64,000 bases of DNA from Mesorhizobium escarrei (GTDB lineage: Bacteria; Pseudomonadota; Alphaproteobacteria; Rhizobiales; Rhizobiaceae): positions 132,354 through 196,353 of the forward strand of contig NZ_CAKXZT010000116.1 in assembly GCF_935825525.1 (NCBI RefSeq), read 5' to 3'. The notes below the pieces were generated by a model that saw only the letters and a list, made by a program, of their open reading frames with translations, searched no databases and was not told the origin of the DNA. This document shows positions 2,636 to 59,291 of this stretch, piece after piece. The position numbers and the translations under genes were made by a program. The first letter of the stretch is position 1, and each line of letters starts with the position of its first letter.

Positions 2636-2704
2636 GTTCTTGCCCTGTTAGCTACTCCCCAGATTGCAGGGGAGGGTCTGGATATCAAACGGCTGGCGCC
2701 GGTT

Positions 2705-16082: not shown

Positions 16083-16094
16083 AGGGTTTTCCTT

Positions 16095-19205: not shown

Positions 19206-19224
19206 CAGTTTTCGGGAGGAAAAG

Positions 19225-20409: not shown

Positions 20410-20420
20410 GGGAGGAAAGA

Positions 20421-32441: not shown

Positions 32442-32472
32442 GAATACTCCTCCTTTAAAACGTAATTTGCAG

Positions 32473-36395: not shown

Positions 36396-36434
36396 ATCCG
36401 AGCGCAGAGAAGCTAATAAGCGGGGCAATTTTCT

Positions 36435-41444: not shown

Positions 41445-43247
41445 ATGGACGTTTCAGGCCGCCATCTGCTGGAAACCAGTGCGCATGAGTTGCAACACTC
41501 GATCTTCGGCTTTGACCTTCATAGCAAAGCCGTGGGCTCCAACAAGATAGGTGCGCTGGAATCGGTTTACGTGCCCATGCGCGACGGTGTTAAGATCGCC
41601 TTAGATATAGTTCGTCCATTGGGCGACGGCCCTAATACCAAGCGGGGCACCGTCCTGGTGATGACCCGCTACTGGCGTGGCGTCAAAGGAGACCCGACCA
41701 ACCCCTTTGCAGAGCTGTTTGTGCCGCACGGCTATGCCGTGGTCGTCGGAGATGTTCGCGGCACTGGTGCATCTTTTGGCGTGTGGCGTCATCATTATTC
41801 GCGCGCCGAAATATTGGACTTCAGCGACGTGCTCGACTGGATCGTCGCGCAGCCCTGGTCCACCGGCGGTGTGGTCGGCTACGGTCATTCCTACGTGGGC
41901 ACCACTGCGGCATTCATGGCGGAGCGAAACCATCCGGCGCTCAGGGGCACCATGCCGAGCGGTAGAGAGATCGATCCCTATGAAGAGAACTACTTTCCCG
42001 GTGGAATCCGCAACGACTCTCAGGGAAAAACATGGGGCATCTCGGTCAAATACCAAGACAGCAATGTGTTCGCCAAGGTGGAAGTGACTGGCGCGATCAC
42101 GATCATCCCCTCGCCGGGCGTTCGTCCCGTCGGGCCAGACGGCGAGGCGGACCTTCAAGCGGCTTTGCGCGATCACGATACCGCCCCATCGGAATGGGAA
42201 GGCCAGCAGCAGGTGACGTTCAAGGACGATCGTCCCACAACTTGGGGTGGGGAGTCCTGGCGCGACTCGAGCCTAATGGAAGTGGCGGACCGCATCTCTC
42301 GCTCAGGCACCCCAACGCAAGACTATACCGGCTGGTTTGATGGTGGCCTAAGTCAAGGCGCCCTTCGACGCTTCGTACTACAGGCAAATCCGATCAGCGA
42401 GATCATTGGCCCGTGGGGCCATTCCCACGAGATACCATACGATCCCCTCCGTGCCGAGAGTGAGGCCATCTTTCCAACGAAAGAGACCCTGGAGGCGAAT
42501 CGCATCCGCTTCGCCGAGTTGTGCTTGAACGGCCAGGCTGCTCGCGAACAAGGGAAGGTCCTCCATTACTATACGCTCGGGGAGGGGTGGAAAACCACCC
42601 GCTTATGGCCGCTGCCGGGCACCACCCGCCAACGGTGGTACATGGCAAGTGACTCCCGCCTCAGTGCCTCGCCCGACCGAACTGGCTTCGACTCACTTCA
42701 GGTTGACCGCGCCACGGGAGCTCTTACCTCAGTGTGGTGGAACCGCCCCGAGATGGATTTTGGAGATCTGCGCAATTCCGGGGCCGGTCGTCTCACCTAC
42801 ACCAGTGAGGCGTTGACGCGCGACGTCGAGATCACCGGACAACCTGTCGTCCACCTGAACGTCACCTCGACCCGCGAGGACGGTGCCTTCTTCCTCTACC
42901 TCCACGGCATAAAGCCCGACGGGGAGCCTTATTATCTCACGCGGGGGCAGTTGCGCGCCCTGCACCGGAAGATTTGGACGGACTCACCATTCAGCGCGCT
43001 TGGACCCGACCATACCTACCTGCGGCGCGACGCCGAACCGCTCACCCCGGGCGACTCCGCCATTCTGACCTTCACCTTGTTCCCGATGTCCGCTCGTATC
43101 CCGGCGGGTCACCGCCTGAAAGTGATTGTCGCCGGCAGCGACGCACCCACATTTGCCAGTGTCCCCGCGGACGGTGAGCCGCCTTTCCTCAAATTTCACC
43201 ATGGTCCAGCCGGTTGCTACATCGACCTACCGATCATCGAGCCCTAA
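41445..43247 (+). CDS. CocE/NonD family hydrolase, member 1
   Basis: This 600-residue serine hydrolase of the X-Pro dipeptidyl-peptidase (S15) superfamily cleaves esters or amides in characterised relatives such as cocaine esterase and alpha-amino-ester hydrolases. The N-terminal alpha/beta domain has PMRDGVKIALDIVRP, an oxyanion part RYWRG, and the nucleophile Ser149 in GYGHSYVG. DYTGWFDGG near 310 and GPWGHSHE near 335 carry the probable catalytic Asp and His. The C-terminal jelly-roll includes PVVHLNVTSTREDGAFFLYL and ARIPAGHRLKVIVAGSD. There is no signal peptide. GAGGGAA precedes the ATG. The closest context is the Dpp-type importer 1.2 kb downstream, from which insertion-sequence debris separates it. 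Confidence 0.85.
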   Translation: MDVSGRHLLETSAHELQHSIFGFDLHSKAVGSNKIGALESVYVPMRDGVKIALDIVRPLGDGPNTKRGTVLVMTRYWRGVKGDPTNPFAELFVPHGYAVVVGDVRGTGASFGVWRHHYSRAEILDFSDVLDWIVAQPWSTGGVVGYGHSYVGTTAAFMAERNHPALRGTMPSGREIDPYEENYFPGGIRNDSQGKTWGISVKYQDSNVFAKVEVTGAITIIPSPGVRPVGPDGEADLQAALRDHDTAPSEWEGQQQVTFKDDRPTTWGGESWRDSSLMEVADRISRSGTPTQDYTGWFDGGLSQGALRRFVLQANPISEIIGPWGHSHEIPYDPLRAESEAIFPTKETLEANRIRFAELCLNGQAAREQGKVLHYYTLGEGWKTTRLWPLPGTTRQRWYMASDSRLSASPDRTGFDSLQVDRATGALTSVWWNRPEMDFGDLRNSGAGRLTYTSEALTRDVEITGQPVVHLNVTSTREDGAFFLYLHGIKPDGEPYYLTRGQLRALHRKIWTDSPFSALGPDHTYLRRDAEPLTPGDSAILTFTLFPMSARIPAGHRLKVIVAGSDAPTFASVPADGEPPFLKFHHGPAGCYIDLPIIEP

Positions 43248-43519
43248 GCAGAAAGCCGATTACAGTGGAAAGGAACGCTCGTCGGATATGAACGCGATCA
43301 AGTGACCAATCGCAGCCTTGGTATCCTATGTGTCTGTAGCTGGCGGTGCGCGGCCTCATTGAACCGGATTGAACTATAACCGCTGGTGCGACCCACTAGA
43401 TTTAAGCAGCGTTGTTCCGTGGTGGCGTGCTGATCTGGATGGTGCGACGCTGCGGTAGGACAACGCCTGAGCGCGAGACGGTGATTCTGCCGCCGAAGGA
43501 GGTCGTGGTGACGCCTGAT
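43248..43519. other. Gap behind the first CocE gene
   Basis: No gene is visible in these 270 bases. Insertion-sequence debris begins at about 43520. Confidence 0.4.
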
Positions 43520-43937
43520 CGTTGGCTACGCCATCGGCCGCTCGATCGATGCGCGCCTGACGGTCGCCGCCTTGAGGACCGCCATCGATCGGAGAAGACC
43601 ACCGCCAGGCTGCATTCACCATTCCGGTCGCGGCTCGCAATATGCCGCCGAGATCTACCGGCAACTTCTTGCCGATCAAGGCCTGATCGGCTCGATGGGC
43701 CGCAGAGGCAACCCCTACGACAACGCCGAGGCCGAGAGCTTCGTGAAGACGCTGATGGTCGAAGCTGTTTACCCCTATGGCTTCGCAACCTTCGACGACG
43801 TCACTGAACAACTGAACACCTTCCCCGCTTCATCGATGTCTACAATAACCGCAGGCTCCATTCGGCGCCCCCTATCTGAGCCCGTAACGGTTCGAGGGTC
43901 AACACACCCGGCAGACTGGCAAAACAGCAGCCTGATC
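43520..43937 (+). pseudogene. IS3-family OrfB integrase remnant
   Basis: The plus strand encodes YAIGRSIDARLTVAALRTAI, then CIHHSGRGSQYAAEIYRQLL, ADQGLIGSMGRRGNPYDNAE and AESFVKTLMVEAVYPYGFAT. This is the catalytic core of an IS3 integrase. The second catalytic Asp of HHSDRGSQY is changed to Gly, while the Glu in AEAESF is kept. A frameshift before the end leads to FIDVYNNRRLHSA, and the C-terminus (FEGQHTRQTGK) is in yet another frame. The N-terminal part and OrfA are missing. Confidence 0.85.
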
Positions 43938-43984
43938 ACTGTCCATCCTCAGGGGCGCACTCCACGCGGGCGAGCGACCGGTAA

Positions 43985-44200
43985 TGGAGACGGCGAGGGT
44001 GCGACTTGCTCGTGCCGGTAACCGCGATGAGGACGGCGTCGCGCTGATCGGCGATGAAGGTGTCGGTGGTGATGTCGCGGACCAGCGTCTCGTTGACCGG
44101 CGTATCGGTAAGTCGAAGTCCTCGCCAGCGGCAGCTTGGCGGCGGTGAGCTTGGTACTTGATGCAATGGGCTTGCTTCTCGGTGAGCTCCGCCGAGCAGG
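43985..44200 (-). pseudogene. IS21-family IstB helper ATPase remnant
   Basis: The minus strand contains LTEKQAHCIKYQAHRRQ in one frame and DTPVNETLVRDITTDTFIAD then QRDAVLIAVTGTSKSH in another. This is the start of the ATPase domain of IstB, in which the Walker A motif (normally GGTGTGKSH) is altered to AVTGTSKSH. The rest of the gene is missing. It lies between the IS3 remnant and the promoter region of the first solute-receptor gene. Confidence 0.7.
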
Positions 44201-44463
44201 TCGCCAACGATCCTGGGCGGGTCGTGCTGCCGCTTTATGGCGGTGGCCAGTGCTACCTGCAGAGAGCCGACGAGTGCAGATGGTGAGCGACAATACGCTG
44301 GATCGCGTAGGAAATCGACTTCGGCGCAAGACCGTGCAAGTGCGCCGATTTTCTGCGCCGATAGCCCAACAAATTGTGCAAAGCAGCGGCCTCACTTGGT
44401 ATCATGGAAGAAACAAAGCCGCATTCTCGGCACCAAGGAAACAAAGGGAGGAGGAGCATCTCA
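44201..44463. promoter_or_regulatory. Leader region of the dpp-type operon
   Basis: The 260 bases before the first receptor gene should contain the operon promoter. GGGAGGAGGAGC ending about six bases before the ATG is a very strong ribosome site, and the second receptor gene has a similar one. I could not assign a -35/-10 pair. Confidence 0.5.
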
Positions 44464-46047
44464 ATGTCGCAGGAACTCGACTATCTAAGCCGCCGCTTCG
44501 CTGCGGGCCGGCTGAGCCGACGTGAATTTCTCGGCCGAGCGACTGCGCTCGGCGTTAGTGCCACTTTCGCCAACTCACTTCTTGCCGGCGCCGCGAAGGC
44601 GCAGACGCCGAAAAGGGGCGGCATCCTTAAAGCCGGCATCGTAGGTGGGGCGGCTACGGACACCCTCGACCCAGCGAAATTCATCGAGTTGATGTCCTAC
44701 TTCGGCAAATGCTGGGGCGAGTTTCTCGTGGCGCTGACGGGCGATGGGGGACTGGAGAACCGGCTTGCCGAGGAGATCGGCTCATCCAAAGACGCCAAAG
44801 TTTGGACCTTCAAAATCCGTCAGGACGTTGAATTCCACAACGGCAAGACTGTGACAGCGGAGGATGTTGTGGCGACGCTGGAGCGCCACTCCAACAAGGA
44901 ATCGCAGTCCGGCGCGCTGGGCATCTTGGCAGGCATTGGGAGCGTCAAGGCCGACGGCCGCGACGTCGTCGTCACCCTCAAGGAGCCGAACGCCGAGCTG
45001 CCCTACCTCATGGCAGACTATCATCTCGTCATCCAGCCCAACGGTGGCAAGGACAACCCGGCCGAGGGCATCAGTGCAGGTCCCTATAAGGTGACCGTCA
45101 ATGAGCCCGGCGTCCGCCACGGCGGCGAGCGCTTCGCTAATTTCTGGCAGTCCGACAAGATGGGCTTCGCCGATCAGGTCGAGATCGTCGCCATCAATGA
45201 CACCACAGCCCGCGTTTCCGCGCTGCAGGGCGGCCAAGTGCATATGATCAATAAGGTCGAAACAAAGGTCGTCGATCTCATCCAGCGCGTGCCGAATTTG
45301 AAGGTCGAGGCCCTGTCGGGTCCCGGCCACTATTGTTTCAACATGTTCTGCGACACGGCGCCCTTCGATAATGCCGACCTGAGGATGGCGCTCAAGCTCG
45401 CGGTGGATCGTCAGGAGATGGTCGACAAGATCCTGCGCGGCTATGGCACTGTCGGCAACGACTTCCCGATCAATGCGGCCTATCCGCTCTTCCCCGAGGG
45501 CATCGAGCAGCGTGCCTTCGATCCGGATAAAGCCAAGTTCCATTATCAGAAGTCGGGCCACAGCGGGCCGATCCTGCTCAGGGCCTCCGAGGTTGCCTTT
45601 GCCGGCGCTGTCGACGCCGCGCAGCTTTTCCAGCAAAGCGCGGCCAAGGCCGGCATCGCCATCGAGGTCAAACGCGAGCCGGGCGATGGCTACTGGTCGG
45701 AAGTCTGGAACAAGCAGCCCTTCTGCGCCGCCAACTGGAGGGGGCGGGCGACACAAGGGTGGATGTACTCGACCACTTATCTGTCGACGGCGCCCTGGAA
45801 CGATACGCACTTCTTTAACGAAAGGTTCGACAAGCTGCTCATCCAGGCGCTCGGCGAACTCGACCAGGATAAGCGCGAGAACCTCTATCGCGAGATGGCC
45901 GTCATCGTTCGCGATGAAGGGGGGACGATCGTGCCGATGTTCAACCAGTTCATCGATGCGATCTCCGACCAGCTTGGCGGCTACGTCGGACGGGTCGACT
46001 CGCTGATGAACGGTTACGCCTTGACGCAGTGCTGGCTCGAGGCTTGA
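44464..46047 (+). CDS. Peptide-type ABC transporter solute-binding protein, copy 1 (SBP family 5)
   Basis: This 527-residue periplasmic receptor of the DppA/OppA family begins with a twin-arginine leader (SRREFLGR at about 19-26, a hydrophobic stretch and AAKAQ as cleavage site), so it is exported folded. KRGGILKAGIVGG starts the mature protein; VWTFKIRQDVEFHNGKTVTA near 115 is the family signature. It opens a four-gene operon with two permeases and a fused double ATPase. A close paralogue of the same length is encoded at 50325-51908. Known members bind peptides, opines, nickel-peptide chelates or glycosides. Twin-arginine receptors of this group are common in rhizobia. The ligand is unknown. 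Confidence 0.87.
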   Translation: MSQELDYLSRRFAAGRLSRREFLGRATALGVSATFANSLLAGAAKAQTPKRGGILKAGIVGGAATDTLDPAKFIELMSYFGKCWGEFLVALTGDGGLENRLAEEIGSSKDAKVWTFKIRQDVEFHNGKTVTAEDVVATLERHSNKESQSGALGILAGIGSVKADGRDVVVTLKEPNAELPYLMADYHLVIQPNGGKDNPAEGISAGPYKVTVNEPGVRHGGERFANFWQSDKMGFADQVEIVAINDTTARVSALQGGQVHMINKVETKVVDLIQRVPNLKVEALSGPGHYCFNMFCDTAPFDNADLRMALKLAVDRQEMVDKILRGYGTVGNDFPINAAYPLFPEGIEQRAFDPDKAKFHYQKSGHSGPILLRASEVAFAGAVDAAQLFQQSAAKAGIAIEVKREPGDGYWSEVWNKQPFCAANWRGRATQGWMYSTTYLSTAPWNDTHFFNERFDKLLIQALGELDQDKRENLYREMAVIVRDEGGTIVPMFNQFIDAISDQLGGYVGRVDSLMNGYALTQCWLEA

Positions 46048-47018
46048 ACCGAGTGCTTGTCAACTCACCCCTTGTGAGGCTGATTGCCCAGCGCGTCGGG
46101 CTGGGCATTCTCCTCCTCTTCGCGGTCTCCGGGCTGATCTTCGCGGGCACCCAGATCCTTCCAGGTGACGTGGCGCAGTCTATCCTCGGACAGGCTGCCA
46201 CGCCCGAGGCGGTCGCTAATCTGCGCCGGGAGCTTGGCCTCAACGATCCGGCGATCGTGCGCTATTTCCAGTGGCTCGGCGGGGTTATCACCGGCGATCT
46301 CGGCACCGCGCTCACCACACGACAGGAGATCACTGTGACGCTGATGCCCCGGCTGTGGAACACGCTGTTCCTTGCTTTCTGGGCCGCTGTCGTGTCGATT
46401 CCCCTCGCAATCATGCTCGGGCTGCTGGCCGTGCGCTACCGCAACGGTCCGATCGACAAGGCGATTTCGGGCTTTGCGCTAGCGTCCATATCTCTGCCTG
46501 AATTCTTCATCGGTTACCTGCTTATCCTGTTCCTTGCGGTGAAGCTGCAGTGGTTCCCGTCGATCTCGACCGTTTATGACGGAATCCCCTTCGTTGAGAA
46601 GCTGAAGGCGATCGTGCTGCCGGTAATCGCATTGGTGCTTTCCGTCCTGGCGCACATGATGCGCATGACGCGTGCGGCGATCCTGAACGTGATGCAGTCG
46701 GCCTACATCGAGACGGCCGAACTCAAGGGTCTTTCCGCCCTAGATATCATCCGTAAGCACGCATTCCCGAACGCCATCGCGCCGATCATCAACGTCGTGA
46801 TGCTCAACATGGCTTACCTGGTCGTCGGCGTCGTCGTGGTCGAGGTGATCTTCGTCTACCCAGGCATGGGGCAATACTTGGTCGACCACGTCGTCAAGCG
46901 CGACGTGCCCGTTGTTCAAGCCGTCGGTCTCATCTTTGCTGCCGTGTACATCGGGTTGAATATCGTCGCAGACGTCGCCGCGATCCTTGCCAACCCCCGC
47001 CTGCGGCATCCGAAGTAG
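46029..47018 (+). CDS. Peptide-type ABC transporter permease, DppB-like
   Basis: This inner-membrane permease of about 329 residues starts either with GTG at 46029, overlapping the receptor gene by 19 bases, or with GTG at 46053; neither has a clear ribosome site, and coupling to the receptor gene is likely. It has the standard first helix (LIAQRVGLGILLLFAVSGL), a periplasmic loop with LPGDVAQSILGQAATPE and ARREL-like sequence, and the EAA loop TAELKGLSALDIIRKHAFP near 235. Length and order match DppB. A decayed copy of its gene follows the second receptor gene at 51925-52146. Confidence 0.87.
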   Translation: MLARGLNRVLVNSPLVRLIAQRVGLGILLLFAVSGLIFAGTQILPGDVAQSILGQAATPEAVANLRRELGLNDPAIVRYFQWLGGVITGDLGTALTTRQEITVTLMPRLWNTLFLAFWAAVVSIPLAIMLGLLAVRYRNGPIDKAISGFALASISLPEFFIGYLLILFLAVKLQWFPSISTVYDGIPFVEKLKAIVLPVIALVLSVLAHMMRMTRAAILNVMQSAYIETAELKGLSALDIIRKHAFPNAIAPIINVVMLNMAYLVVGVVVVEVIFVYPGMGQYLVDHVVKRDVPVVQAVGLIFAAVYIGLNIVADVAAILANPRLRHPK

Positions 47019-47028
47019 GAGGGAGGAT

Positions 47029-47853
47029 TTGCTCAATTTCAAGCGTATCCCCCTCGGGGCGTGGATCGGCCTAATCCTGACCGGGCTGTTAATGATCTGT
47101 GCGCTTCTTGCGCCCTGGATCGCCCCATATGGCAATGGCGAAATTGTTGGCGACGTATGGGAGCCGATGTCGTGGACGCACTGGCTGGGGACTGACAATC
47201 TCGGGCGAGACCTGCTCTCGCGCATGCTGTATGGCGCCCGCATCACGATCTTTATTTCCGCCATGGCCACCGCCTTGTCCTTCTCTCTCGGCGCCATGCT
47301 CGGCTTCATGGCAGCGGTCGTCGGCGGTCTGCTCGACATGCTGATGTCGCGGATCGTCGATCTCTTGATGGCGATACCAACGTTGATATTCGGCCTCGTC
47401 GTTCTATCAGTGCTGCCCGCGAACAACCTGACGCTCATTCTTGTGATGGGGATCTTAAGTTCGACGCGCGTGTACCGCCTCTCAAGCGCCGTTGCTGCGG
47501 ACATCAACGCGATGGACTTCGTTGAAGCGGCCAGGTTGCGCGGGGAGCGTCTCGGCTGGATCATCTTCCGCGAGATCCTGCCCAACGCACTGTCGCCGCT
47601 GGTGGCGGAACTCGGTCTGCGCTTCATTTTTTCGGTGCTGTTCCTGTCGGCGCTCTCGTACTTGGGGCTTGGCGTGCAACCGCCCGAGGCGGATTGGGGC
47701 GGCATGGTGATGGAGAACAAGGACGGCATTGTCTTCGGGATTCCTGCCGCCCTCATCCCAGCCGCTGCGATCGCAGCGCTGGCGATCTCCGTCAATCTTG
47801 TCGCCGACTGGGTGCTTACCCGCACAACCAGCTTCAAGGGAGGGCGCGACTGA
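47029..47853 (+). CDS. Peptide-type ABC transporter permease, DppC-like
   Basis: This second permease of the importer has 274 residues from the TTG at 47029, chosen because GGGAGGA lies at the right distance; no ATG is available before conserved sequence starts. The family motif GTDNLGRDLLSRMLYGAR is at about 60 and the EAA loop VEAARLRGERLGWIIFREI near 165. Its stop overlaps the ATG of the ATPase gene (TGATG), so translation is coupled. With DppB it forms the transmembrane channel. Confidence 0.87.
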   Translation: MLNFKRIPLGAWIGLILTGLLMICALLAPWIAPYGNGEIVGDVWEPMSWTHWLGTDNLGRDLLSRMLYGARITIFISAMATALSFSLGAMLGFMAAVVGGLLDMLMSRIVDLLMAIPTLIFGLVVLSVLPANNLTLILVMGILSSTRVYRLSSAVAADINAMDFVEAARLRGERLGWIIFREILPNALSPLVAELGLRFIFSVLFLSALSYLGLGVQPPEADWGGMVMENKDGIVFGIPAALIPAAAIAALAISVNLVADWVLTRTTSFKGGRD

Positions 47854-49520
47854 TGGCTAAGGTTCAGATGCCACCGCGGCGCGAAATGGGGGTTCTGCTC
47901 GAAATCCGCAACCTCAAGGTCGAAGCGACGGTCTATTCGCCTGGCGAGAACCCGCGCGACGTCACCATCGTGGACGGCGTATCGCTGGCCCTGAAGCGCG
48001 GCAAGGTGCTGGGACTGATCGGCGAATCCGGCGCCGGCAAGTCGACCATCGGCCTTTCCTCCATGGGTTATGGCCGCGGTGGAGTCCGCATCACCGGCGG
48101 CGAGGTCCTTCTCAACGGCCGCGATATCCTGAAGGGCGGCGTCCAGGGTTTGCGCAGGGTGCGCGGGAGCGAGGTTTGCTATGTCGCGCAGTCAGCTGCC
48201 GCCGCTTTCAACCCCGCGCATCGGCTCATGGGCCAGGTCGTAGAAGCAGCGCTTCTGCACGGCACTGCGACCAAGGCCGAAGCAGAAAAGCGCGCGGTGG
48301 CGCTGTTCACGAAGCTCCGCTTGCCCGACCCCAAAAGCATCGGCTATCGCTATCCACATCAGGTCTCTGGCGGCCAATTGCAGCGCGTCATGACTGCGAT
48401 GGCGCTTTGTTCCGAACCGGACCTGATCGTTTTCGACGAGCCTACTACAGCCCTCGATGTGACAACCCAGATCGAGGTGCTTGCTGCGATCAAGGACGCG
48501 ATCCGGGACAATGGTGTTGCGGCGCTCTACATCACACACGATCTTGCCGTGGTGACCCAGGTCTCGGACGAGATCATTGTGCTGCGGGACGGTAAGATGG
48601 TGGAGCACGGGGAAACGCGGCAGATCATCGAGGCGCCGCGCATGGACTACACTAAGGCGCTGGTGTCGGTGCGTTCGATCGAGCATGAGGAGAAGGAACC
48701 AACGCCGAAGCCTCTGTTGTCAGTGAGGAACGTCACTGCCGCTTATGGCGGCGGTGCCGTGAAGGTTCTGCAGGACGTCTCGGTTGACGTCCATTCCGGC
48801 CAAACGCTCGCGGTGGTCGGCGAGTCGGGCTCCGGAAAATCCACCCTGGCCCGCGTCATTACGGGGCTGCTGCCACCCATCGCCGGCAGCATCACCTTCG
48901 CCAGCCGCACGCTCGCGCGCAGGCTCGCAGACCGATCCAGGGATGATCTTCGAGAACTGCAGATGATTTATCAGATGGCGGACGTGGCGATGAATCCGCG
49001 CCAGACGGTGGGCACCATCATTGGCCGGCCGCTTGAGTTCTATTTTGGCATGCGCGGACGCGAGCGCGATAAGCGCGTTGCCGAGCTTCTCGACGAGATT
49101 GAGATGGGCAAGGGATTCATCGACCGATATCCGGCGGAGCTTTCCGGTGGGCAGAAGCAGCGGGTCTGCATCGCCCGCGCGCTGGCGGCCAAGCCGAAAC
49201 TCATCATCTGCGACGAGGTGACCAGCGCTCTTGACCCGCTAGTGGCCGATGGCATCCTGAAGCTGTTGCTCCGCCTGCAGAAGATTGAGGACGTGGGTTA
49301 CCTGTTCATCACGCACGACCTCGCGACAGTGAAGGCTATCGCCGATTCCATCGCAGTAATGTATCGGGGAGAGGTGGTCCGCCACGGCTCGAAGACGCAG
49401 GTGCTGACGCCGCCGTTTGATGCCTATACCGACCTGCTGCTCTCTTCGGTTCCCGAGATGGAGGTTGGCTGGCTCGAAAGCGCCATCAAGGGACGCCGAA
49501 TGGAGAGCGCGGGCAACTGA
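47853..49520 (+). CDS. Peptide-type ABC transporter fused double ATPase (DppD-DppF fusion)
   Basis: This 555-residue protein carries two complete nucleotide-binding domains. The first has GESGAGKST, the Q-loop YVAQSAAAAFNPA, the signature VSGGQLQR and LIVFDEPTTALD. The second has [30 protein letters not shown] and [12 protein letters not shown], where Val replaces the usual Pro. Most such importers encode two separate ATPases; the fusion is known in GsiA and YejF types. The ATG overlaps the dppC stop. It is the last gene of the operon. A weak hairpin (TTTCTCCC-ACGC-GGGAAAAA, 49532-49551) follows the stop. Confidence 0.88.
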   Translation: MAKVQMPPRREMGVLLEIRNLKVEATVYSPGENPRDVTIVDGVSLALKRGKVLGLIGESGAGKSTIGLSSMGYGRGGVRITGGEVLLNGRDILKGGVQGLRRVRGSEVCYVAQSAAAAFNPAHRLMGQVVEAALLHGTATKAEAEKRAVALFTKLRLPDPKSIGYRYPHQVSGGQLQRVMTAMALCSEPDLIVFDEPTTALDVTTQIEVLAAIKDAIRDNGVAALYITHDLAVVTQVSDEIIVLRDGKMVEHGETRQIIEAPRMDYTKALVSVRSIEHEEKEPTPKPLLSVRNVTAAYGGGAVKVLQDVSVDVHSGQTLAVVGESGSGKSTLARVITGLLPPIAGSITFASRTLARRLADRSRDDLRELQMIYQMADVAMNPRQTVGTIIGRPLEFYFGMRGRERDKRVAELLDEIEMGKGFIDRYPAELSGGQKQRVCIARALAAKPKLIICDEVTSALDPLVADGILKLLLRLQKIEDVGYLFITHDLATVKAIADSIAVMYRGEVVRHGSKTQVLTPPFDAYTDLLLSSVPEMEVGWLESAIKGRRMESAGN

Positions 49521-51908: not shown

Positions 51909-51924
51909 ACGTAGCTTTATGGGC

Positions 51925-52146
51925 TCGCCCGTTCTGATGCTGGTTGCCCAGCGTGTCGCGCTGGGCATTCTCCGCATCTTCGCGGTCTCCGTGGCGATTT
52001 GTACGGAAGATCGTGCTGCCGGAAACGACTTCAGTGTTTGTCGCTCGCATACATGAACCGTACGCGTTGCGGTCGTCGATCGAGGTAGCTGAGCTGACGG
52101 GCTTTCCGCCTTCGAGTATCAGCCTGGCGAACGCGATCGTCGTTTA
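51925..52146 (+). pseudogene. Remnant of a duplicated dppB-like permease gene
   Basis: The sequence VLMLVAQRVALGILRIFAVS corresponds to the first helix of the intact permease at 46029-47018 (LIAQRVGLGILLLFAVS). After a deletion of more than 400 bases, another frame reads RKIVLPETTSVFVARIHEPY and SSIEVAELTGFPPSSISLAN, matching the later region KAIVLPVIALVLS to IETAELKGLSALDIIRKHA. Nothing downstream of this region is found. It shows that the second receptor gene came from a duplication of the operon start. Confidence 0.85.
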
Positions 52147-52320
52147 GCCGAGCGCTTGCGCTCCAGCAGCTCCAGATCACGCGCGCAGTACATTCATTGA
52201 GCACGAGAACACCGTCAGACGTCTGCCACAACACGAAGCGGGAGCGGGTCTCGCGCTAGCAGTTTCTCTGAAGGCGGTCCCCGTCAATCCCAAGTGCTGA
52301 CACCAGATTTTGGAGGAAAA

Positions 52321-53166
52321 ATGCTCGCACAAAAACGCATATCCGTTGGTGGTGTTACGACGTCCTATTACGAGAAAGGGGCGGGCGACCCAATTGTGTT
52401 GCTACATGGTGCCGGTCCCTACGGGGAGGCAAAAAGCTCCTTTATTCGGCAGCTGAACGGGCTATCCGATCGTTTCAGGGTGATCGCTGTTGATCAGCTC
52501 CATTTCGGGGGAACGGACTACCCTGCCGATCGCAAATATATAAACCGGTTCGATCGTGTGGATCACGTAATTGCCTTTATCGACGCGCTCGGATTGAAGC
52601 AGACTATACTGCTCGGCCATTCAGAAGGCTCATTCGTCGCCGCGCGGATTGCTATCGTTCGTCCCGATCTTGTTTCCAGGCTGGTATTGCTGACCGCCAG
52701 CGCCCTATCCCCAGCGTTCGGAGATGAGCGCGATGAAGCTTGGATGCAAGCTTGCCAGCTGGAGTACAATTACTCCCTGCCAATGCCCACCGAAAATGAA
52801 TACATCGCCGATTGGCGGAAAAATTGCCGGGCCTATGGGCAGGATCTCGAAGATGCGAGGCGAGAGGCTTATTGGGAAGCCACGGCGCGCGGACAATACG
52901 AGATTTTTGAGAATGCCCCTGAGGAGGAGTCGGATCCGCGCCTTTATACACAGCTGCAACAGAAACACATCTTCCCGTATCTGGATCAGGTCCAGGCTGA
53001 GACGTTGATCATCTGGTCGAAGAATGATCCTACTGTTCCGCCGGAACGCGGCTTGATGCTGGCAAAGATGATCCGGAATGCGGATTTCCACCTTTTGAAT
53101 AATGCAGGGCATTCAGTTCAGAATGACCGAAGCGAAGCCGTGAACGGACTCATCCGGCAATGGTGA
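52321..53166 (+). CDS. Alpha/beta hydrolase (C-C bond or ester hydrolase type)
   Basis: This 281-residue cytoplasmic hydrolase starts at an ATG directly behind GGAGGAAAA. It has the oxyanion segment VLLHGAGPYGEAKS, the nucleophile elbow GHSEGSFVA (Ser near residue 101), IIWSKNDPTVPPERG with the catalytic Asp and NNAGHSVQNDR with the catalytic His. The layout and size are those of meta-cleavage product hydrolases and 2-hydroxymuconate-type enzymes, though simple esterases look alike. It lies between the second receptor gene and two CocE-family hydrolase genes, all on the plus strand, suggesting a shared substrate. A distinct promoter is possible in the 170 bases before it. Confidence 0.82.
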   Translation: MLAQKRISVGGVTTSYYEKGAGDPIVLLHGAGPYGEAKSSFIRQLNGLSDRFRVIAVDQLHFGGTDYPADRKYINRFDRVDHVIAFIDALGLKQTILLGHSEGSFVAARIAIVRPDLVSRLVLLTASALSPAFGDERDEAWMQACQLEYNYSLPMPTENEYIADWRKNCRAYGQDLEDARREAYWEATARGQYEIFENAPEEESDPRLYTQLQQKHIFPYLDQVQAETLIIWSKNDPTVPPERGLMLAKMIRNADFHLLNNAGHSVQNDRSEAVNGLIRQW

Positions 53167-53430
53167 GAGATCAACAGCCAAGGCGAACAGCAGTCTGCCC
53201 TCGGTAAGCCTTTCCGAGGGTCGTGACCCGGCGCGCGAACGAAAGTGCAGGCCAAATGACTCTGTCGTCGCGCGTTTCAGCCTGCCGTAGGGTCGTCGCT
53301 GTAGCGAAGCCCGGCAGCGTTGCAAAATACAGCCCTTCAGGAAGGAGCAAGCGGCCTTCGTGGCGGCGCTGTTCAAGCTGCTAGCTAGCGCGAGGTACCC
53401 TCGACCGTTAGGAGAATGGAGGAGCCGGCT
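53167..53430. other. Gap before the second CocE gene
   Basis: These 264 bases hold no recognised gene. GGAGGAG at 53418-53424 is the ribosome site for the downstream gene and lies inside an earlier in-frame ATG, which makes that earlier start unlikely. Confidence 0.45.
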
Positions 53431-55251
53431 ATGTGTGTCTGCGATAAGAGTGGTACGAAGCCGTTGCCTGCGCCGCGTTTTGAGGTGGTTCTGCAAACGG
53501 GGCTGCGTGTTCCGATGCGCGACGGCGTAGAACTTGCGACGGACGTCTACCACCCGGTCGGGTACCGCGGCAAACTGTCCACGATTTTGATCCGGACAAA
53601 GTACGGCAAAGCGCCATATCGTCTGCCGAAACCCAATAACCCCGAAGCTATGATGTTCGCGGCGCAGGGGTATTCAGTGGTCGTACAGGAACTTCGCGGA
53701 CTCTTCGATTCCGGCGGCAATTTTGGGCTTCTCGAGCACGACGCGAGGGACGGTTACGATACACTGTCGTGGATCGCGTCGCAGCCATGGTCGACGGGAC
53801 GGGTCGGCACATACGGTTGCTCTGCGCTCGGAACCACGCAAGTGATTGTCGCTCAGCTGTGCCATCCGGCCCATCGATGTGCGATTATCGAAGGGGCAGG
53901 CGGTTCGATGACTGGACACCGACACCGGTTGGGAGACCAGCGCCTATGCAGCTTGCGCTGGGGTGGGGCGGTGGAGCTTGGGATGTGGGTCCCCCACTTC
54001 CATCAATCGCATGCTAAGGACCGCTCCCGGCCCCAACCGATACCCGACGCGGAATACGAGCGCGCGTTTGCGATATTGCCCATCATCGATATCCTCAAAA
54101 GCTTGGGCTCACCTCCGACTGAATGGGAGGACTGGATCTCACGTAACCCTGACGACCCTTGGTTCGACCGGCTGGGCCTCCTTCGGGAGGACTCCAGAAT
54201 CGACCTCCCAGCGTTGTTCGTGCATTCATGGTACGACGTCGGCGCGGGCGACGCGCTCCGTCAACAGCGAGTCTTCAGCTCTTGCGGGATTACCACTGCG
54301 GCTCGAGAGCACCAGCATATCATTTTGTCGCCAGCGGTGCATTGTGAAACTGCGACACTGACGGCCCCGACGGTGGTAGGCGAGCGCGAACTGGGCGACG
54401 CGCGGCTCGATTGCTGGCGGATTTACCTAAACTGGTATGACTGCTGGCTTAAGGACGAGCCCGATCGAATCGAGGGAATGCCCCGCATCCAGTACTACGT
54501 GATGGGTCGCAACGAGTGGCGTGCCACGTCAGAATGGCCACCCGCAGGGGTCAAACTACAGCGCTGGTTTCTGCGCAGCGGTGGAAGTGCCAACACTCGC
54601 CTTGGCGATGGCCGGCTCGACCTAGCGCCACCTTCCGACGACGAGCCAGCCGACTCGTTTGTATACGACCCCGGAAATCCGGTGCGGTATCTGGGCGTTC
54701 AGGGCGGGAATGCAAAGGGGACGACGGTAGGCCCACGGGACTACCAAGAAGTCGAACTCCGTCACGACGTTCTTTGCTTTACATCCGAGGTGCTAAACGA
54801 AGGCGTGGAAGTCACCGGATTTGTGAAGGCGATCCTGTTCGTCTCTTCTTCGGCTCTAGACACCGACTTTGTGGCCAGACTCCTGGATGTGCATCCGGAC
54901 GGGCGGGCGATTGACGTTGTCGACGGAATACTCCGCGTCCGATACCGCGACGGCTTCGATCGGGCTGTGATGATGAAGCCCAAAGAGGTCTACCAAATCG
55001 AAATAGATTTAGACGCTACCAGTAACTGGTTCCCACCCGGCCATCGCATCAGACTCGAAATCTCAAGTTCCTCGTTTCCTCGTTTTGACCGCAACTTGAA
55101 CACAGGGGGCAACAACTGGGACGAAACAAAATGGACTGTTGCCAACAACGCAGTGCATCATTGCGCAGTGTTCCCGTCCTACATATTGGTGCCTGTCGCG
55201 GCCGACGTATCTGGAGGGATAGAAATCCAAGACAGGTCGGAGAAATCGTGA
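53431..55251 (+). CDS. CocE/NonD family hydrolase, member 2
   Basis: This 606-residue S15-superfamily hydrolase starts at the second ATG because GGAGGAG precedes it at the right distance. The N-terminal motif VPMRDGVELATDVYHP is typical. The nucleophile is Ser131 in GTYGCSALG, where CocE-type enzymes usually have Tyr after the Ser. HSWYDVGAGDA near 275 probably contributes the Asp, and LSPAVHCETA near 305 the His. The jelly-roll domain follows (VTGFVKAILFVSSSALDTDF and WFPPGHRIRLEISSSSFPRF). It begins MCVCDKSG, with no signal peptide. The third CocE gene follows 56 bases later. Similarity to the two other CocE proteins in the window is limited to family motifs. Confidence 0.84.
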   Translation: MCVCDKSGTKPLPAPRFEVVLQTGLRVPMRDGVELATDVYHPVGYRGKLSTILIRTKYGKAPYRLPKPNNPEAMMFAAQGYSVVVQELRGLFDSGGNFGLLEHDARDGYDTLSWIASQPWSTGRVGTYGCSALGTTQVIVAQLCHPAHRCAIIEGAGGSMTGHRHRLGDQRLCSLRWGGAVELGMWVPHFHQSHAKDRSRPQPIPDAEYERAFAILPIIDILKSLGSPPTEWEDWISRNPDDPWFDRLGLLREDSRIDLPALFVHSWYDVGAGDALRQQRVFSSCGITTAAREHQHIILSPAVHCETATLTAPTVVGERELGDARLDCWRIYLNWYDCWLKDEPDRIEGMPRIQYYVMGRNEWRATSEWPPAGVKLQRWFLRSGGSANTRLGDGRLDLAPPSDDEPADSFVYDPGNPVRYLGVQGGNAKGTTVGPRDYQEVELRHDVLCFTSEVLNEGVEVTGFVKAILFVSSSALDTDFVARLLDVHPDGRAIDVVDGILRVRYRDGFDRAVMMKPKEVYQIEIDLDATSNWFPPGHRIRLEISSSSFPRFDRNLNTGGNNWDETKWTVANNAVHHCAVFPSYILVPVAADVSGGIEIQDRSEKS

Positions 55252-55307
55252 GCTAAGAGAAGCCGCAAATTCTTAAGCGGGGGCAATGTCTTGATACGGA
55301 GTTGAGC

Positions 55308-57074
55308 ATGAAAAGCGCAGAAGCACCAGATTTCACTGAGACGAATGTGATCCGCGACATCGGCTACGTCGCGATGAACGATGGAACGCGCATGGCATAC
55401 ATCTCATATCGTCCGAAGGAATCGGGCCAGTATCCGACAGTTTTCCTCTACGATCCATACATAGCAAATGCGACCCCTTTCGAAATCGTGAAGGAATTCC
55501 TTGATGCCGGCTACGCTTTCGTGGGCGCCAATCTTCCCGGAACCGGATGCTCTGAAGGTGTCATCGACTTTTGGCATGAACAGCGAATGGTTAAAGGCGG
55601 ACCTTATGGTGCTGAGTTGGTTGAATGGATCGCCAGGCAGCCCTGGAGCGATGGCAATATCGGGATGGTCGGCAATTCATCGGCGGGGCAGCCGCAGTTC
55701 TGGGTCGCAGCCGAGCGGCCTCCTCATTTGCGGGCAATCGTGGCGAGCGGTTTCGGGGACGGCTACGAGTTTATGGGATACTCTGGCGGAATGCTCCCGC
55801 TTGCCGAGGGGGAATGGGTGATTCAAAGTCAGTTTGTGACCGGCCCCCGCGGTGCAGAGTGGCGCATCAATCAGGGCGATACCGAGTGCGCCAAGATTCG
55901 TGGGAGCGACAGGCAGGTTATCAAGACTTCTTTTTTTGACCTGTGGAGGAAGCACCCACTGAAGGATGAATGGTGGGAATCTGAGACTTTGGTCAGCAAG
56001 GAACTCACCGATCGAGTCACTGTGCCCAGCATGATCATTGGGGCTTGGCAAGAGGCCTACGGTGGCGCCGCTAGGGCTAACGTTCGAATGTTTACCCACT
56101 TCATGCGGAATGTGAAGAACAAGAAGCTTGTTCTAATGAACGGTGATCATGGGATCAATGGACCTGGGCCGCGTGGCTATAGTCTTGTAGACAAGGAACG
56201 AATGAAGTTCCTCGATCGTTGGGTGAAAGGTGTTAGGAACGGAATAGAGAACGAGCCGCCCATCACTGTCTATTGGGAGGTTCAGCAACCCGAGGGAGAT
56301 CCGAAGAAATCGGCAGCCGGCTGGATGACGCATCACAACACGTGGCCAGACCCGAAAGTCGAGCGCCGCACCTTCTATCTCTCGGTGGACGCACAGATCT
56401 CGCCCGAGAAGCCGGGTGCCAACTCCAATGAGGGATCCCGCGCCTACCTATACCCAACGGGAACAGAACTTTACGGAGACAATCAGCAATTCCAGGTTCG
56501 ACCTTATTCCCCCGGGGTTCTCAACTACCGAACAGCGCCTGTCACCTCGGATATGGTGTTGCTTGGAAATCCGGAAGTCGTGCTGTATCTCAGCATAGAC
56601 AACGGCGACGACGCCGACATCGAACTTACGTTGAAAGACGTCGGTCCCGACGGGGTGCTCTTCGTTCAATCAGGCGTGTTGCGGGCTTCCCTCCGCGCGA
56701 TCGACAACGACCGAACCTATGTTGACGAGGTGGTGCATTCGTTTCGGAAGTCTGAGAAACTTGTCCCGGGTGAGATCTACGAACTCCGGCTGTCGTTGAT
56801 TTCGCCCATCGCTCACGTCGTCAGGCAAGGGCATAGCCTCGAACTCACCATCGGTGCGACAAATCCCATTCCGCATAGCGTCCTCGGCAGCATTCCTGCC
56901 GGAGCAGCCTCTATCAACAGGGTCTATCACTCGGTGAAGTACAGTTCAAGAATACTGCTGCCCATCATTCCGGGGGCGGTGGCGCAAGCCCCTGCTCCTG
57001 CATATGACGCTCTTCGAGGTCAGGCCTATCGCAAGGACGACGAGTTTGTCCCTGGCGGACTGCCGGTTTGTTAG
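55308..57074 (+). CDS. CocE/NonD family hydrolase, member 3
   Basis: This 588-residue protein starts at the ATG preceded by ACGGAG; a TTG two codons upstream is less likely. The N-terminal part reads VAMNDGTRMAYISYRP, with NLPGTGCSEG near 75. The nucleophile is Ser124 in GNSSAGQPQ. MIIGAWQEAYGG near 245 and LMNGDHGINGPGPRG near 280 hold the likely Asp and His. The C-terminal domain shows VVLYLSIDNGDDADIELTL and GHSLELTIGATNPIPHSVLG. It differs greatly from members 1 and 2, so these three are old paralogues brought together, not a fresh expansion. The substrate is unknown; peptide, ester or amide bonds are all possible. Confidence 0.84.
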   Translation: MKSAEAPDFTETNVIRDIGYVAMNDGTRMAYISYRPKESGQYPTVFLYDPYIANATPFEIVKEFLDAGYAFVGANLPGTGCSEGVIDFWHEQRMVKGGPYGAELVEWIARQPWSDGNIGMVGNSSAGQPQFWVAAERPPHLRAIVASGFGDGYEFMGYSGGMLPLAEGEWVIQSQFVTGPRGAEWRINQGDTECAKIRGSDRQVIKTSFFDLWRKHPLKDEWWESETLVSKELTDRVTVPSMIIGAWQEAYGGAARANVRMFTHFMRNVKNKKLVLMNGDHGINGPGPRGYSLVDKERMKFLDRWVKGVRNGIENEPPITVYWEVQQPEGDPKKSAAGWMTHHNTWPDPKVERRTFYLSVDAQISPEKPGANSNEGSRAYLYPTGTELYGDNQQFQVRPYSPGVLNYRTAPVTSDMVLLGNPEVVLYLSIDNGDDADIELTLKDVGPDGVLFVQSGVLRASLRAIDNDRTYVDEVVHSFRKSEKLVPGEIYELRLSLISPIAHVVRQGHSLELTIGATNPIPHSVLGSIPAGAASINRVYHSVKYSSRILLPIIPGAVAQAPAPAYDALRGQAYRKDDEFVPGGLPVC

Positions 57075-57129
57075 CCTTCGACACAGGCGAGGTCAGCCAA
57101 CTTCAGCGAGCTCGTGTGAGGTAGGGAGT

Positions 57130-57680
57130 CGTCGTTTCTGGTGTGATGCCGTTCTTTGTCGACGGAATCGATCGGGGAGCCGAGGCGATAAGCGCCTCAT
57201 CCTCGATGAGTTCGTCGCGGTGACCTGTTATCCTCGCAAGCATGCGATCCGAGTGCTCGGTCATCGTGCATCGAAGACACCTGGCAACAAAGAGGCACAG
57301 CCTTCGCTATGGCGGCGATGTTCGCGAAGCGCTCGTGGTGTTGTGGGAGGCATCGGAGCGGCTATGTTCCAAACGGCTGCGGCCTTTGATACCTGTCTTG
57401 CTGCCAGCGCTTGAACGGCATGGCCGGCTAGAGCTCGATGCCGCGCTCGGCGGCAAGCTGCTGACAATGAGCCCGGCGACGATGGATCGGCTTATAGCGG
57501 AGGTACGTGTTGTGGCGCTCGCGGCGGCCAGCGCCGCCGAGCAGGAATGAGTTCGGCGGTTCGCCGATCGGTGCCAGTGCGCACCTTCGGGGACTTGGAA
57601 TGATCCGCCGCCCGGTTTCGTCGAGGTCGATTTCGTGGTGCATTCCGGCAAATCGTCCGGCAGCGCCCTGGAGTGAACCA
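57130..57680 (+). pseudogene. Remnant of an integrase-type transposase (ISNCY-like)
   Basis: Plus-strand frames read LILDEFVAVTCYPRKHAIRV and, after a shift, VREALVVLWEASERLCSKRL, then RPLIPVLLPALERHGRLELD and TMSPATMDRLIAEVR. This is the helix-turn-helix start of a rhizobial DDE integrase group. A short VRTFGD and PPPGFVEVDFVVHSGKSSG in neighbouring frames are the beginning of the catalytic domain. Several frame changes and the lack of everything downstream show that it is dead. I am not certain of the family name. Confidence 0.6.
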
Positions 57681-57691
57681 TAAGACGCGTC

Positions 57692-57777
57692 CGCGCACCG
57701 GCGCAGCTCGCCTACATGCTCGCCGGGATCGAATGGCGGCAACCCGCCCACACGTTCCGCCCCCCAGCGCCGCGGGC
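57692..57777 (+). pseudogene. C-terminal fragment of an IS66 TnpB
   Basis: The frame reads APAQLAYMLAGIEWRQPAHT followed by FRPPAPR, which lines up with the C-terminus of the intact TnpB at 38465-38812 (TPAQLGYLLEGIDWRMAQKTW). It is only about 28 residues long and belongs to a different IS66. It directly follows the integrase remnant. Confidence 0.7.
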
Positions 57778-58013
57778 TGAGTTTTTCTTTGAGTTTGCGC
57801 CATTTTCCGCGAGTCAGCCGCGCTGATCAGCACGGGCCCCATGCCGGAAAACGTGGCGACCAAGCCCTCAGCTACACCACTCCCTTGAGAGCCAAGACAG
57901 TCGCTCTCCAAAAATCAGCCTGATCGGGATTGCTTCACAGGCGGCAAAAGCACCCTCATTGACTTGCCACCGTCTCCTGCTCTCGTGCACCAATGTTCCT
58001 CGACAACACACCT
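57778..58013. other. Gap before the ATP-grasp gene end
   Basis: No gene is evident in these 236 bases, which form the downstream side of the minus-strand ATP-grasp gene. Confidence 0.35.
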
Positions 58014-59291
58014 TTATCCACCTCCGCACGTTCTGGGAGATGAGGGGGCCGCAGATTGTTCCGGTTCGCCAATGGCCGATGATGGTGTGATCGACCAACC
58101 GATTAAGTTGACGGCGCGCTCGATTGTCGCTTCGGTTTGAGCACGGGTGGGTGAAGCGGCGATGACATATCCCAGACAATCTCGGTAATCGCCTTTCCTG
58201 ACGATCAGCGTCTTGGGTTTAACATACAATTTGACCTCGGCGATACCTGGCACTTCAGCCGCCCGACTGTAGCCATCGATCCAATCGAGGATGCCATCGC
58301 GATCAGGAACTAGATACCGCGCGGCCGCAGTCTGCGAATGCCTTCTGCGCAAATCCCATTCGTCGCCGATGACAAGCTTGATGTGCTCAGAAACGAGATC
58401 GACACCGTAAGCCGCTTGAACCAGTTGAGGACCGGGCGTGCCAGAAAGACGCGGATTGACTTCAATGACGACCGGGCCACGCTTCGTCCACCGGAATCCA
58501 ATGTTCGTTGGTCCCCAGCCAAGACCGAGAGCTTGCAAACAGCTCAGCGAAACATCGGCCACACGCTTCTGCTCGTCTTCGGTCAGCGGGGCCGGATAGG
58601 TGGACTCACGATAGACGAAATACGGCGGGGGGCCGAAGTCGCCGGTGCTTATTCCAATGACCTCATCTCCCATTAAATCGACCCAATGATAGGGGCCTTG
58701 CGCGAATTCTTCGACCAGTATCCTCGGCGAAGACCGCCAAACGTGCTTCCCCCCCAACAGATGGGTTGTGTGTTCGGCTAACTCACCGACGTCCCGGCAC
58801 AATCGAACACCGCAGCTGCCTGCGCCCACGGCCGGCTTAAGAATTACCGGCATCCCGATTTCCGCAGCAGAGTTTTGTACGTCCCTCGCGTTCTCTGCGA
58901 TGCGGTAATTAGGTATGGGAACGCCGGCCTCCGCAAGGATCTGACGTTGAATAAATTTGTCGCAACATCGTTCAATCGATGTGGGGTTCGGTCCCGGTAG
59001 TTCGAAATATCGGCTGAGTTTGCTAATTGTCGGGTAGAACGCCTCCAGGGATGACGTAATGCCAGCAATGTCATAAGTCGCACCTACACGGGAACATTCA
59101 CGGATCAGCGCATCGAGGTTGTCTGTAGGCACACGGACTACCTCGCAGGTTTCCGCCGCAAGATAGTTGTACTGCGCAGGATCGGCTGACAAGGTAATTG
59201 GATGAAGACCAAGACGCTTGGCCGCTTGGATGAAGAGGATGCCATTACCCGTTGGATCGTCTTCGACCAGAATGAGTGCTCTCGTTGCCAT
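58014..59291 (-). CDS. ATP-grasp domain protein, probable carboxylate-amine ligase
   Basis: This 425-residue protein has the full ATP-grasp layout: an N-terminal Rossmann-like part (ALILVEDDPTGNGILFIQ), a central segment QRQILAEAGVPIPNYRI then PVILKPAVGAGSCGVRL for the ATP phosphates, RILVEEFAQGPYHWVDLMG, and FRWTKRGPVVIEVNPRLSGT with the Mg2+-binding Glu and Asn. It resembles biotin-carboxylase-like ligases that couple a carboxylate to an amine, such as L-amino-acid and carnosine-type ligases. AAGGA lies about 11 bases before the ATG. It is encoded opposite to and 940 bases away from the third CocE hydrolase. A ligase beside amide/ester hydrolases and a peptide-type importer suggests one pathway handling an amide-linked compound, but no substrate is evident. 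Confidence 0.8.
   Translation of the reverse strand: MATRALILVEDDPTGNGILFIQAAKRLGLHPITLSADPAQYNYLAAETCEVVRVPTDNLDALIRECSRVGATYDIAGITSSLEAFYPTISKLSRYFELPGPNPTSIERCCDKFIQRQILAEAGVPIPNYRIAENARDVQNSAAEIGMPVILKPAVGAGSCGVRLCRDVGELAEHTTHLLGGKHVWRSSPRILVEEFAQGPYHWVDLMGDEVIGISTGDFGPPPYFVYRESTYPAPLTEDEQKRVADVSLSCLQALGLGWGPTNIGFRWTKRGPVVIEVNPRLSGTPGPQLVQAAYGVDLVSEHIKLVIGDEWDLRRRHSQTAAARYLVPDRDGILDWIDGYSRAAEVPGIAEVKLYVKPKTLIVRKGDYRDCLGYVIAASPTRAQTEATIERAVNLIGWSITPSSAIGEPEQSAAPSSPRTCGGG

Follow-up and report, generated by a model that had tools for sequence, protein, structure and literature searches.

A symbiosis-region relative of a genus-wide importer-CocE operon in Mesorhizobium escarrei, with a possible role in the uptake and cleavage of an acidic, amine-blocked conjugate

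Introduction

CocE/NonD hydrolases are best known through cocaine esterase and the enzymes that act on antibiotic side chains, and to our knowledge it is not settled what they do naturally in soil and symbiotic bacteria. A stretch of 64,000 nucleotides from Mesorhizobium escarrei (G000:C116:132354-196353, hereafter the window) carries three genes for such hydrolases within 18 kb, together with a Dpp-type importer, a further alpha/beta hydrolase and an ATP-grasp protein. A first-pass annotation of this DNA took the arrangement to be of an unfamiliar kind. Here we find that it is not, since a CocE hydrolase beside a Dpp-type importer is the rule in the genus. The explanation that we prefer, with middling confidence, is that the locus is a symbiosis-island relative of a genus-wide importer-CocE operon, predicted to import an acidic, amine-blocked conjugate (opine-like, or an N-acyl amino acid) and to cleave its ester or amide bond in the cytosol. 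An ABC importer with a cognate cytosolic hydrolase is a kind of system already known; what is new is a symbiosis-region version with an accreted set of three CocE proteins.

The right edge of the window coincides with the end of its contig. With nodC at 36.5 kb and nifH at 94.8 kb on it, this contig belongs to a symbiosis island or symbiosis plasmid. All genes that the first-pass annotation had named are present as open frames, nine on the plus strand and the ATP-grasp gene on the minus strand:

41445..43247, plus: CocE1, CocE/NonD hydrolase (S15 and PepX_C domains), 600 aa, with Ser149, Asp299 and His326
44464..46047, plus: SBP1, twin-arginine SBP_bac_5 receptor, 527 aa, with Arg at the position of DppA Asp436
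46029..47018, plus: PermB, DppB/OppB-like permease, with Gln-Ala in place of the DppB scoop-loop Glu41-Arg42
46987..47853, plus: PermC, DppC-like permease
47853..49520, plus: fused DppD-DppF-like double ATPase (the ORF opens at 47694; the likely start is 47853)
50325..51908, plus: SBP2, second twin-arginine receptor, 82% identical sister duplicate of SBP1
52294..53166, plus: ABH, alpha/beta hydrolase whose closest kin are meta-cleavage-product hydrolases (ATG 52321 is the likely start)
53416..55251, plus: CocE2, cocaine-esterase-like hydrolase, with Ser136, Asp274 and His309
55302..57074, plus: CocE3, divergent CocE hydrolase, with Ser126, Glu251 and His283
58014..59291, minus: ATP-grasp protein (L-amino acid ligase C-terminal domain), a recurrent rhizobial gene

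The most likely start of SBP1 is ATG 44464, which has a good ribosome-binding site upstream, 44374 being merely the start of the longest ORF.

CocE hydrolases and Dpp-type importers across the genus

Fourteen genomes, chosen by hand for consisting of one or two contigs and including three already known to have CocE3 or an island-type receptor (G048, G124 and G136), were searched for the CocE family, which gave 43 rows and, upon merging 11 pieces of the same ORFs, 32 CocE proteins. A Dpp-type permease lies within 6 kb of 27 of these 32, as compared to none of 20 control stretches placed at round-number positions rather than drawn at random (Fisher P 4e-10, shared ancestry not corrected for). 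The permease probes include proteins from CocE-adjacent loci and match at 100% at two test loci (L120 and the tandem pair in L153). Among the five misses, three lie 6.0-7.4 kb from a permease, and in one more, L159, a receptor relative adjoins the CocE gene. When the CocE proteins are collapsed at 50% identity, six out of ten groups have a permease neighbour, a small figure because half of the groups are single proteins.

The pairing has a regular form. Chromosomal-type loci, taken like the island genomes below from the receptor matches listed, show the same gene order (CocE4, receptor, PermB, PermC, ATPase) in all 26 loci examined, with a second receptor behind the ATPase in 14. A relative of SBP1 (E <= 1e-70) occurs in 145 of 146 genus genomes, and in the window's own genome contig C1 has a chromosomal-type operon and C68 a further version that includes a CocE gene. 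That importer and CocE belong together, as the first-pass annotation had proposed, thus holds well beyond this locus. The same annotation had named a lack of co-occurrence elsewhere as the sign of chance assembly by insertion sequences; given the pairing frequency, the uniform operon and the related island loci, such chance assembly is rejected as the sole account. Word searches of open-licence papers, which cannot prove novelty, found no literature on CocE joined with Dpp-type importers in rhizobia, and two Mesorhizobium expression papers contain no mention of peptide or CocE (strain R7A) or of dipeptide, oligopeptide or X-Pro (M. huakuii). The adjacency gives the hydrolase a partner with a ligand that can be screened.

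Related loci on symbiosis islands

Ten other genomes among the matches listed have island-type receptors, 70-83% identical to SBP1. Permeases are found in the examined stretch in nine of them, G136 having the receptor alone. All ten have nodC and nifH matches (nifH partial in G074); in six (G020, G110, G123, G124, G127 and G136) the locus and nodC or nifH are on one contig, while in the other four they are on different contigs of draft assemblies. In the genus at large nifH (E <= 1e-95) is found in 100 of 146 genomes, and in 16 out of 16 with CocE3 or an island-type receptor (P 0.0015, relatedness uncorrected). Two genomes (G048:C1:2238284 and G080:C1:1388056) have a second, more divergent nifH (410 bits) about 41 kb from their CocE3 locus, the standard nifH being elsewhere.

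A relative of CocE2 or CocE3 lies at most 6.1 kb from a permease or receptor in six of the ten island genomes (G034, G124, G020, G110, G127 and G074); none of the ten has a CocE1 relative. As to other genes of the window, the examined stretches of the ten loci share MmgE (8/10), the M20 gene or its partner aminotransferase (8/10), the ATP-grasp gene (7/10) and an intact ABH (5/10).

Given its linkage to nod and nif genes, the nodule is a place to seek the imported compound. A bolder generalisation is that an undescribed system is common to Mesorhizobium and other legume symbionts, in which importers descended from dipeptide importers, with the Asp-to-Arg change, are each paired with a CocE hydrolase and carry no dipeptides, the island versions letting the symbiont feed on an opine-like or N-acyl-amino-acid compound produced in the nodule or near it. 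We think this rather improbable as a whole; if true, the substrate of the island versions would be a new class of nodule nutrient.

Properties of the three CocE hydrolases

All three proteins score above the curated NCBIfam cut-off of 66.3 bits for CocE_NonD (TIGR00976), with 274 (CocE1), 361 (CocE2) and 182 bits (CocE3), and each has an S15 catalytic and a PepX_C domain according to Pfam. They are highly divergent, as the first-pass annotation had described them, with pairwise identities of 21-26%. Of the Ser-Asp-His triad, Ser and His are kept in all three. CocE1 and CocE2 also have the Asp; CocE3 has Glu instead (Glu251), a position at which 7 of 11 aligned rows have Asp. CocE2 aligns with cocaine esterase across almost its whole length (302 bits; Ser, Asp and His kept), CocE1 and CocE3 being much more distant from it (102 and 54 bits).

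No hydrophobic segment was seen in the first 60 residues of CocE1-3, where the best 17-residue Kyte-Doolittle mean is 0.17-0.81 as compared to 1.33 and 1.60 in the receptors. From their sequences the three look cytosolic, which agrees with the earlier statement that they lack signal peptides and act inside the cell. Cocaine esterase and the alpha-amino acid ester hydrolases differ in this respect, the window's enzymes being without a signal segment and importer-linked.

One pathway or a mosaic

The first-pass annotation suggested stepwise hydrolysis of one imported compound. In its fullest form this means a designed pathway in which CocE1, ABH, CocE2 and CocE3 cut a single compound one after the other and the ATP-grasp protein re-ligates a product. 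That the genes are intact and all lie inside 18 kb would agree with such a pathway, as would the closeness and common direction of ABH, CocE2 and CocE3 and the fact that ABH and CocE2 relatives flank the importer in G110 and G127, but the trio occurs in no other genome searched. Relatives of CocE1 (E <= 1e-90) are found in just 5 of 145 other genus genomes and those of CocE3 at the same threshold in 11 genus genomes, and no other genome among the 146 has both; CocE2 has a match (E <= 1e-60) in 10 of 99 genomes searched, its own counted. We consider the designed pathway quite unlikely, also in view of the company that CocE3 keeps and of the gene remnants described below.

The nearest relatives of CocE3 (91% identical in G111, 86% in G116 and 74-75% in G017) are neighbours of a different Dpp-type importer, whose ATPases are separate. 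The receptor of that importer has no match in the window's genome at E <= 1e-40, and its sole solved-chain match at E <= 1e-20 is AppA of B. subtilis. The CocE3 relatives beside SBP1-type importer parts, in G034, G124, G020 and G074, are just 62-65% identical to CocE3. CocE3 relatives are not confined to the genus. In named genomes they were found at 14 loci, including those of the Ensifer sp. strains BR816, MPMI2T and LCM 4579, of Novosphingobium album and of a plasmid from Microvirga; a Dpp-type component is in the examined stretch of 12, the exceptions being Microvirga and Novosphingobium. CocE1 relatives have a Dpp-type importer near them in two of their five genomes (G145 and G142); none was seen in the other three, of which G045 has a short stretch.

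Several CocE genes at one locus are also seen elsewhere. In G020 an intact CocE3-type gene is joined by two more that seem to be interrupted, G116:C78 combines CocE3 with a distant relative of CocE2 next to another Dpp-type importer, and G145 and G014 have tandem CocE1 relatives. Tandem CocE2 relatives, 71-73% identical to CocE2, occur in G030:C74, G059:C4, G081:C5 and G130:C1; those of G030 and G130 follow a different Dpp-type importer, and in G059 and G081 the contig begins there. Intact ABH-MmgE pairs adjoin receptors in G110, G127, G073 and G136.

Remnants of three genes are interspersed among those of the window, and transposases (IS66, Mutator and IS110) border the region:

43572..44021, plus: fragment of a decayed transposase (integrase core), located between CocE1 and SBP1, with weak rve_3/rve matches under the cut-off
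51907..51990, plus: stub of a second PermB, 28 residues, 57% identical
53234..53338, plus: remnant of an MmgE/PrpD gene between ABH and CocE2, 35 residues, 43% identical

The PermB stub follows SBP2 and suggests that SBP2 derives from a duplicated operon. In a tree of 25 receptors SBP1 and SBP2 come out as a sister pair (support 100/97), while the 14 island-type rows cluster (99/96) beside five chromosomal-type rows, the latter placement being weak (81/75). Two independent receptors that differ in specificity by design are rejected on account of this sister relationship and the stub, although the second receptor behind the ATPase in 14 of the 26 chromosomal-type loci weighs the other way. Sister receptors, a permease stub after SBP2 and a CocE3 whose nearest relatives accompany an importer with a receptor not found here together make the window's copy look like a mosaic.

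The three remnants and the surrounding transposases would also suit a non-functional relic scrambled by insertion sequences, the chromosomal operon alone doing the work. This is very unlikely in our view: the importer, both receptors, the three CocE genes and ABH are open full-length frames, the CocE proteins keep their Ser, acid and His, and island-type importers with permeases are retained in the nine other genomes mentioned above.

The ATP-grasp gene, on the opposite strand, is probably a separate unit. When plasmids were searched with the query 74 records matched and 40 were listed; the ATP-grasp part is the best place in 35 of those 40 (H6-H40), which are Sinorhizobium, Rhizobium and Mesorhizobium plasmids, and at the sensitivity of megablast it is the sole place matched in 26 of the 35. 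Its neighbours in S. fredii (L006) include a lyase, a cysteine-synthase-like protein and a GntG aldolase but no importer annotated as of this type, a neighbourhood that suggests a separate small cluster. The re-ligation step proposed earlier loses its footing here, and the gene would have no part in the mechanism proposed below.

The importer and its ligand anchor

The importer consists of two twin-arginine SBP_bac_5 receptors, two permeases and one fused double ATPase, and thus has the architecture of the Dpp family, i.e. an SBP_bac_5 receptor, two permeases and two ABC ATPase domains. The Dpp equivalog cut-offs are missed by far (DppA model 53 of 1005 bits, DppB 169 of 590, DppC 142 of 483). 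A structural model of SBP1 (mean pLDDT 85.8) has GsiB, the glutathione receptor, as its first match in fold comparison, with peptide, nickel and opine receptors, among them DppA, NikA and NikZ, close behind, and this comparison allowed no choice between peptide, nickel, glutathione and opine receptors. A single-sequence search gives three solved receptors, with AgaA, which binds agropinic acid, in second place. A receptor of Mesorhizobium sp. AP09 with bound aminoserine (PDB 8upi) matches the receptor profile with 147 bits; a literature search brought up a paper on quorum sensing but none on this receptor.

Work on E. coli DppA describes how Arg383 holds the carboxyl group of the dipeptide and Asp436 its amino group, how Glu41 and Arg42 of DppB pair with these two residues, and how a DppA R383D+D436R mutant binds neither Gly-Leu nor Ala-Ala (PMC12136057). 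At the Asp436 position all 20 rows of the SBP1 clade have Arg according to four of five MAFFT settings and hhalign; the fifth, fast setting slips by one residue, to Gly. In the scoop loop of PermB all 54 distinct sequences have Gln at position 41 and none has Arg at 42. The receptor clade having Arg for Asp436 and the permease being without the matching charges, canonical dipeptide binding by the SBP1 clade is probably to be discounted, and the label "peptide-type" of the first-pass annotation becomes doubtful: family and fold bear it out, the anchor for the dipeptide amine is missing. The change predicts that many rhizobial importers annotated as peptide or nickel transporters do not carry dipeptides.

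Ordinary peptide scavenging, with a Dpp-type importer for peptides and CocE proteins working as X-Pro dipeptidyl peptidases, draws on the SBP_bac_5 and DppBC families, on GsiB and DppA being among the closest folds and on the S15 and PepX_C domains. We regard it as unlikely, since besides the altered anchor and scoop loop CocE2 is closest to cocaine esterase, and the Xaa-Pro dipeptidyl-peptidase model (NF003780) gives the CocE proteins 29-65 bits at a cut-off of 642.

Uptake of a nickel- or iron-chelator complex, with the CocE proteins hydrolysing the chelator and releasing the metal, seems highly improbable to us. The top NCBIfam matches of receptors and permeases are nickel/cobalt Opp models, but they remain below the curated cut-offs (receptor 146 of 600 bits, permeases 261 of 350 and 178 of 300). 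The fused ATPase does pass those of NikE (371 vs 333 bits) and NikD (354 vs 319), its score summing two ATPase domains; NikA and NikZ are among the close folds, and the iminodisuccinate-epimerase-like neighbour described below would suit chelator-like iminodiacids.

Known systems help to place the importer. Compared to DppABCDF of E. coli (DppA 1dpp, 8z1z), the ATPases are fused in one protein, the receptor has a twin-arginine motif, and Asp436 and the scoop-loop Glu41-Arg42 are replaced by Arg and Gln-Ala. The glutathione importer GsiABCD of E. coli has the isoaspartyl dipeptidase gene iaaA adjacent; it differs in having Ser rather than Arg at the anchor and a partner hydrolase from another family, with no CocE. 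The Agrobacterium opine importers (AgaA, MoaA, AccA) belong to the same SBP_bac_5 family and stand with catabolic genes of a plant-associated bacterium; identity is about 19-24%, and no opine-cleaving enzyme of these systems turned up here, no search having been aimed at one.

The neighbouring catabolic region and the proposed function

Around the locus lie further genes whose products point, by their family assignments, to amino-acid-like products:

34881..36395, plus: MmgE/PrpD protein, nearest solved relative iminodisuccinate epimerase, recurring in related island loci
31296-32576 and 32473-33666, minus: M20 deacylase and class-V aminotransferase, a pair that recurs in related islands
24280-26853 and 26831-28594, plus: DAO/GcvT oxidase and aspartate ammonia-lyase subfamily protein, in the surrounding catabolic region

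Among solved chains the MmgE protein at 34881 is nearest to iminodisuccinate epimerase (121 bits). The lyase at 26831 passes the aspartate ammonia-lyase subfamily cut-off, an M20 protein at 10890 that of an amidohydrolase subfamily (367 vs 154), and an M24 protein at 12076, nearest to the ectoine hydrolase DoeA, stays below the cut-off (433 vs 613). Iminodisuccinate breakdown is described, in PMC7347537 and a title cited there, as the work of an epimerase and a C-N lyase. The region resembles the iminodisuccinate degradation of Agrobacterium BY6 in that the MmgE protein is nearest to its epimerase and that a lyase of the aspartase/fumarase superfamily is present; it differs in that the MmgE match is of 121 bits only and that the lyase is a member of the aspartate ammonia-lyase subfamily. 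We know of no importer-CocE coupling in the BY6 pathway.

An acidic, amine-blocked conjugate is proposed as the ligand because it fits the receptor anchor, the chemistry of the CocE and M20 enzymes and the epimerase. SBP1 or SBP2 would pass the ligand to PermB-PermC, powered by the fused ATPase. CocE1, CocE2 and CocE3 would be alternative hydrolases for related conjugates, collected by recombination, and not three fixed steps of a pathway. The freed amino-acid part would then go to the M20/M24 hydrolases, the iminodisuccinate-epimerase-like MmgE/PrpD protein, the DAO oxidase, the aminotransferases and the aspartase-like lyase, so that C4 and C2 acids and ammonia would be the end products of the neighbouring region.

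A number of observations weigh against this import-and-cleavage reading. Four of the ten related island genomes are without a CocE gene near the importer: it is 34 kb off in G073, and none is in the examined locus of G116, G136 and G123 (G116 has CocE3 on another contig). Outside the genus, in a class-wide sample of one genome per family (29 non-own rows, two being pieces, hence 27 CocE proteins, of which 14 were examined for about 4 kb on each side, L215 being shortened by a contig end), permeases are found in 4 of 14 cases and a receptor in one more; the coupling is weaker there, though the span searched was shorter. As to the ligand, the acid near the DppA Arg383 position depends on the alignment, being Asp or Glu in 19 of 20 rows and Asn in one with four MAFFT settings and a gap in one MAFFT setting and hhalign, and we do not lean on it. 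GsiB is also without the Asp, having Ser there, so that peptide-like ligands are still admitted and only the canonical dipeptide mode is argued against. Its first place in the fold comparison, with peptide, nickel and opine receptors close behind, and the NikE and NikD scores of the fused ATPase also weigh against the reading. On the enzyme side, the CocE relative on C68 starts with a hydrophobic stretch (mean 1.73), for which reason a cytosolic location may not hold for all CocE relatives. The MmgE protein is also related to cis-aconitate decarboxylases (103 bits). Finally, ABH resembles C-C bond hydrolases of aromatic breakdown, and as judged by this likeness it fits that role, which the favoured reading does not use, better than amide or ester cleavage.

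Further observations in the window

A search for the sigma-54 promoter pattern gave 12 matches at 12.85 expected, hence no excess, and Rfam and tRNA scans of the window gave no useful lead. In addition to the MmgE/PrpD gene at 34881 there is a second (34881-37829 for the two) and a truncated third with the PrpD C-terminal domain only (4994-5545). The cluster at 10890-23273 contains an M20 amidohydrolase, two M24 peptidases (one DoeA-like), a GlxA/AraC-type regulator, a class-III aminotransferase, a succinate-semialdehyde-dehydrogenase-like ALDH, an HpcH/HpaI lyase and a two-subunit CoA ligase; its order is kept in G111, at 87-98% identity, and in G020 without the M20 gene. A relative of NylB-like 6-aminohexanoate-dimer hydrolases, i.e. 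an amide hydrolase (L134:5673-7064, G110; 188 bits to 4gb7), is absent from the window and is found in seven of the ten island-receptor genomes, interrupted in G020; proteins were clustered here by single linkage at 55% identity. A polar-amino-acid-type ABC importer (SBP_bac_3, two permeases and ATPase) at 419-3619 has relatives in several related islands, and the region therefore pairs two importer types.

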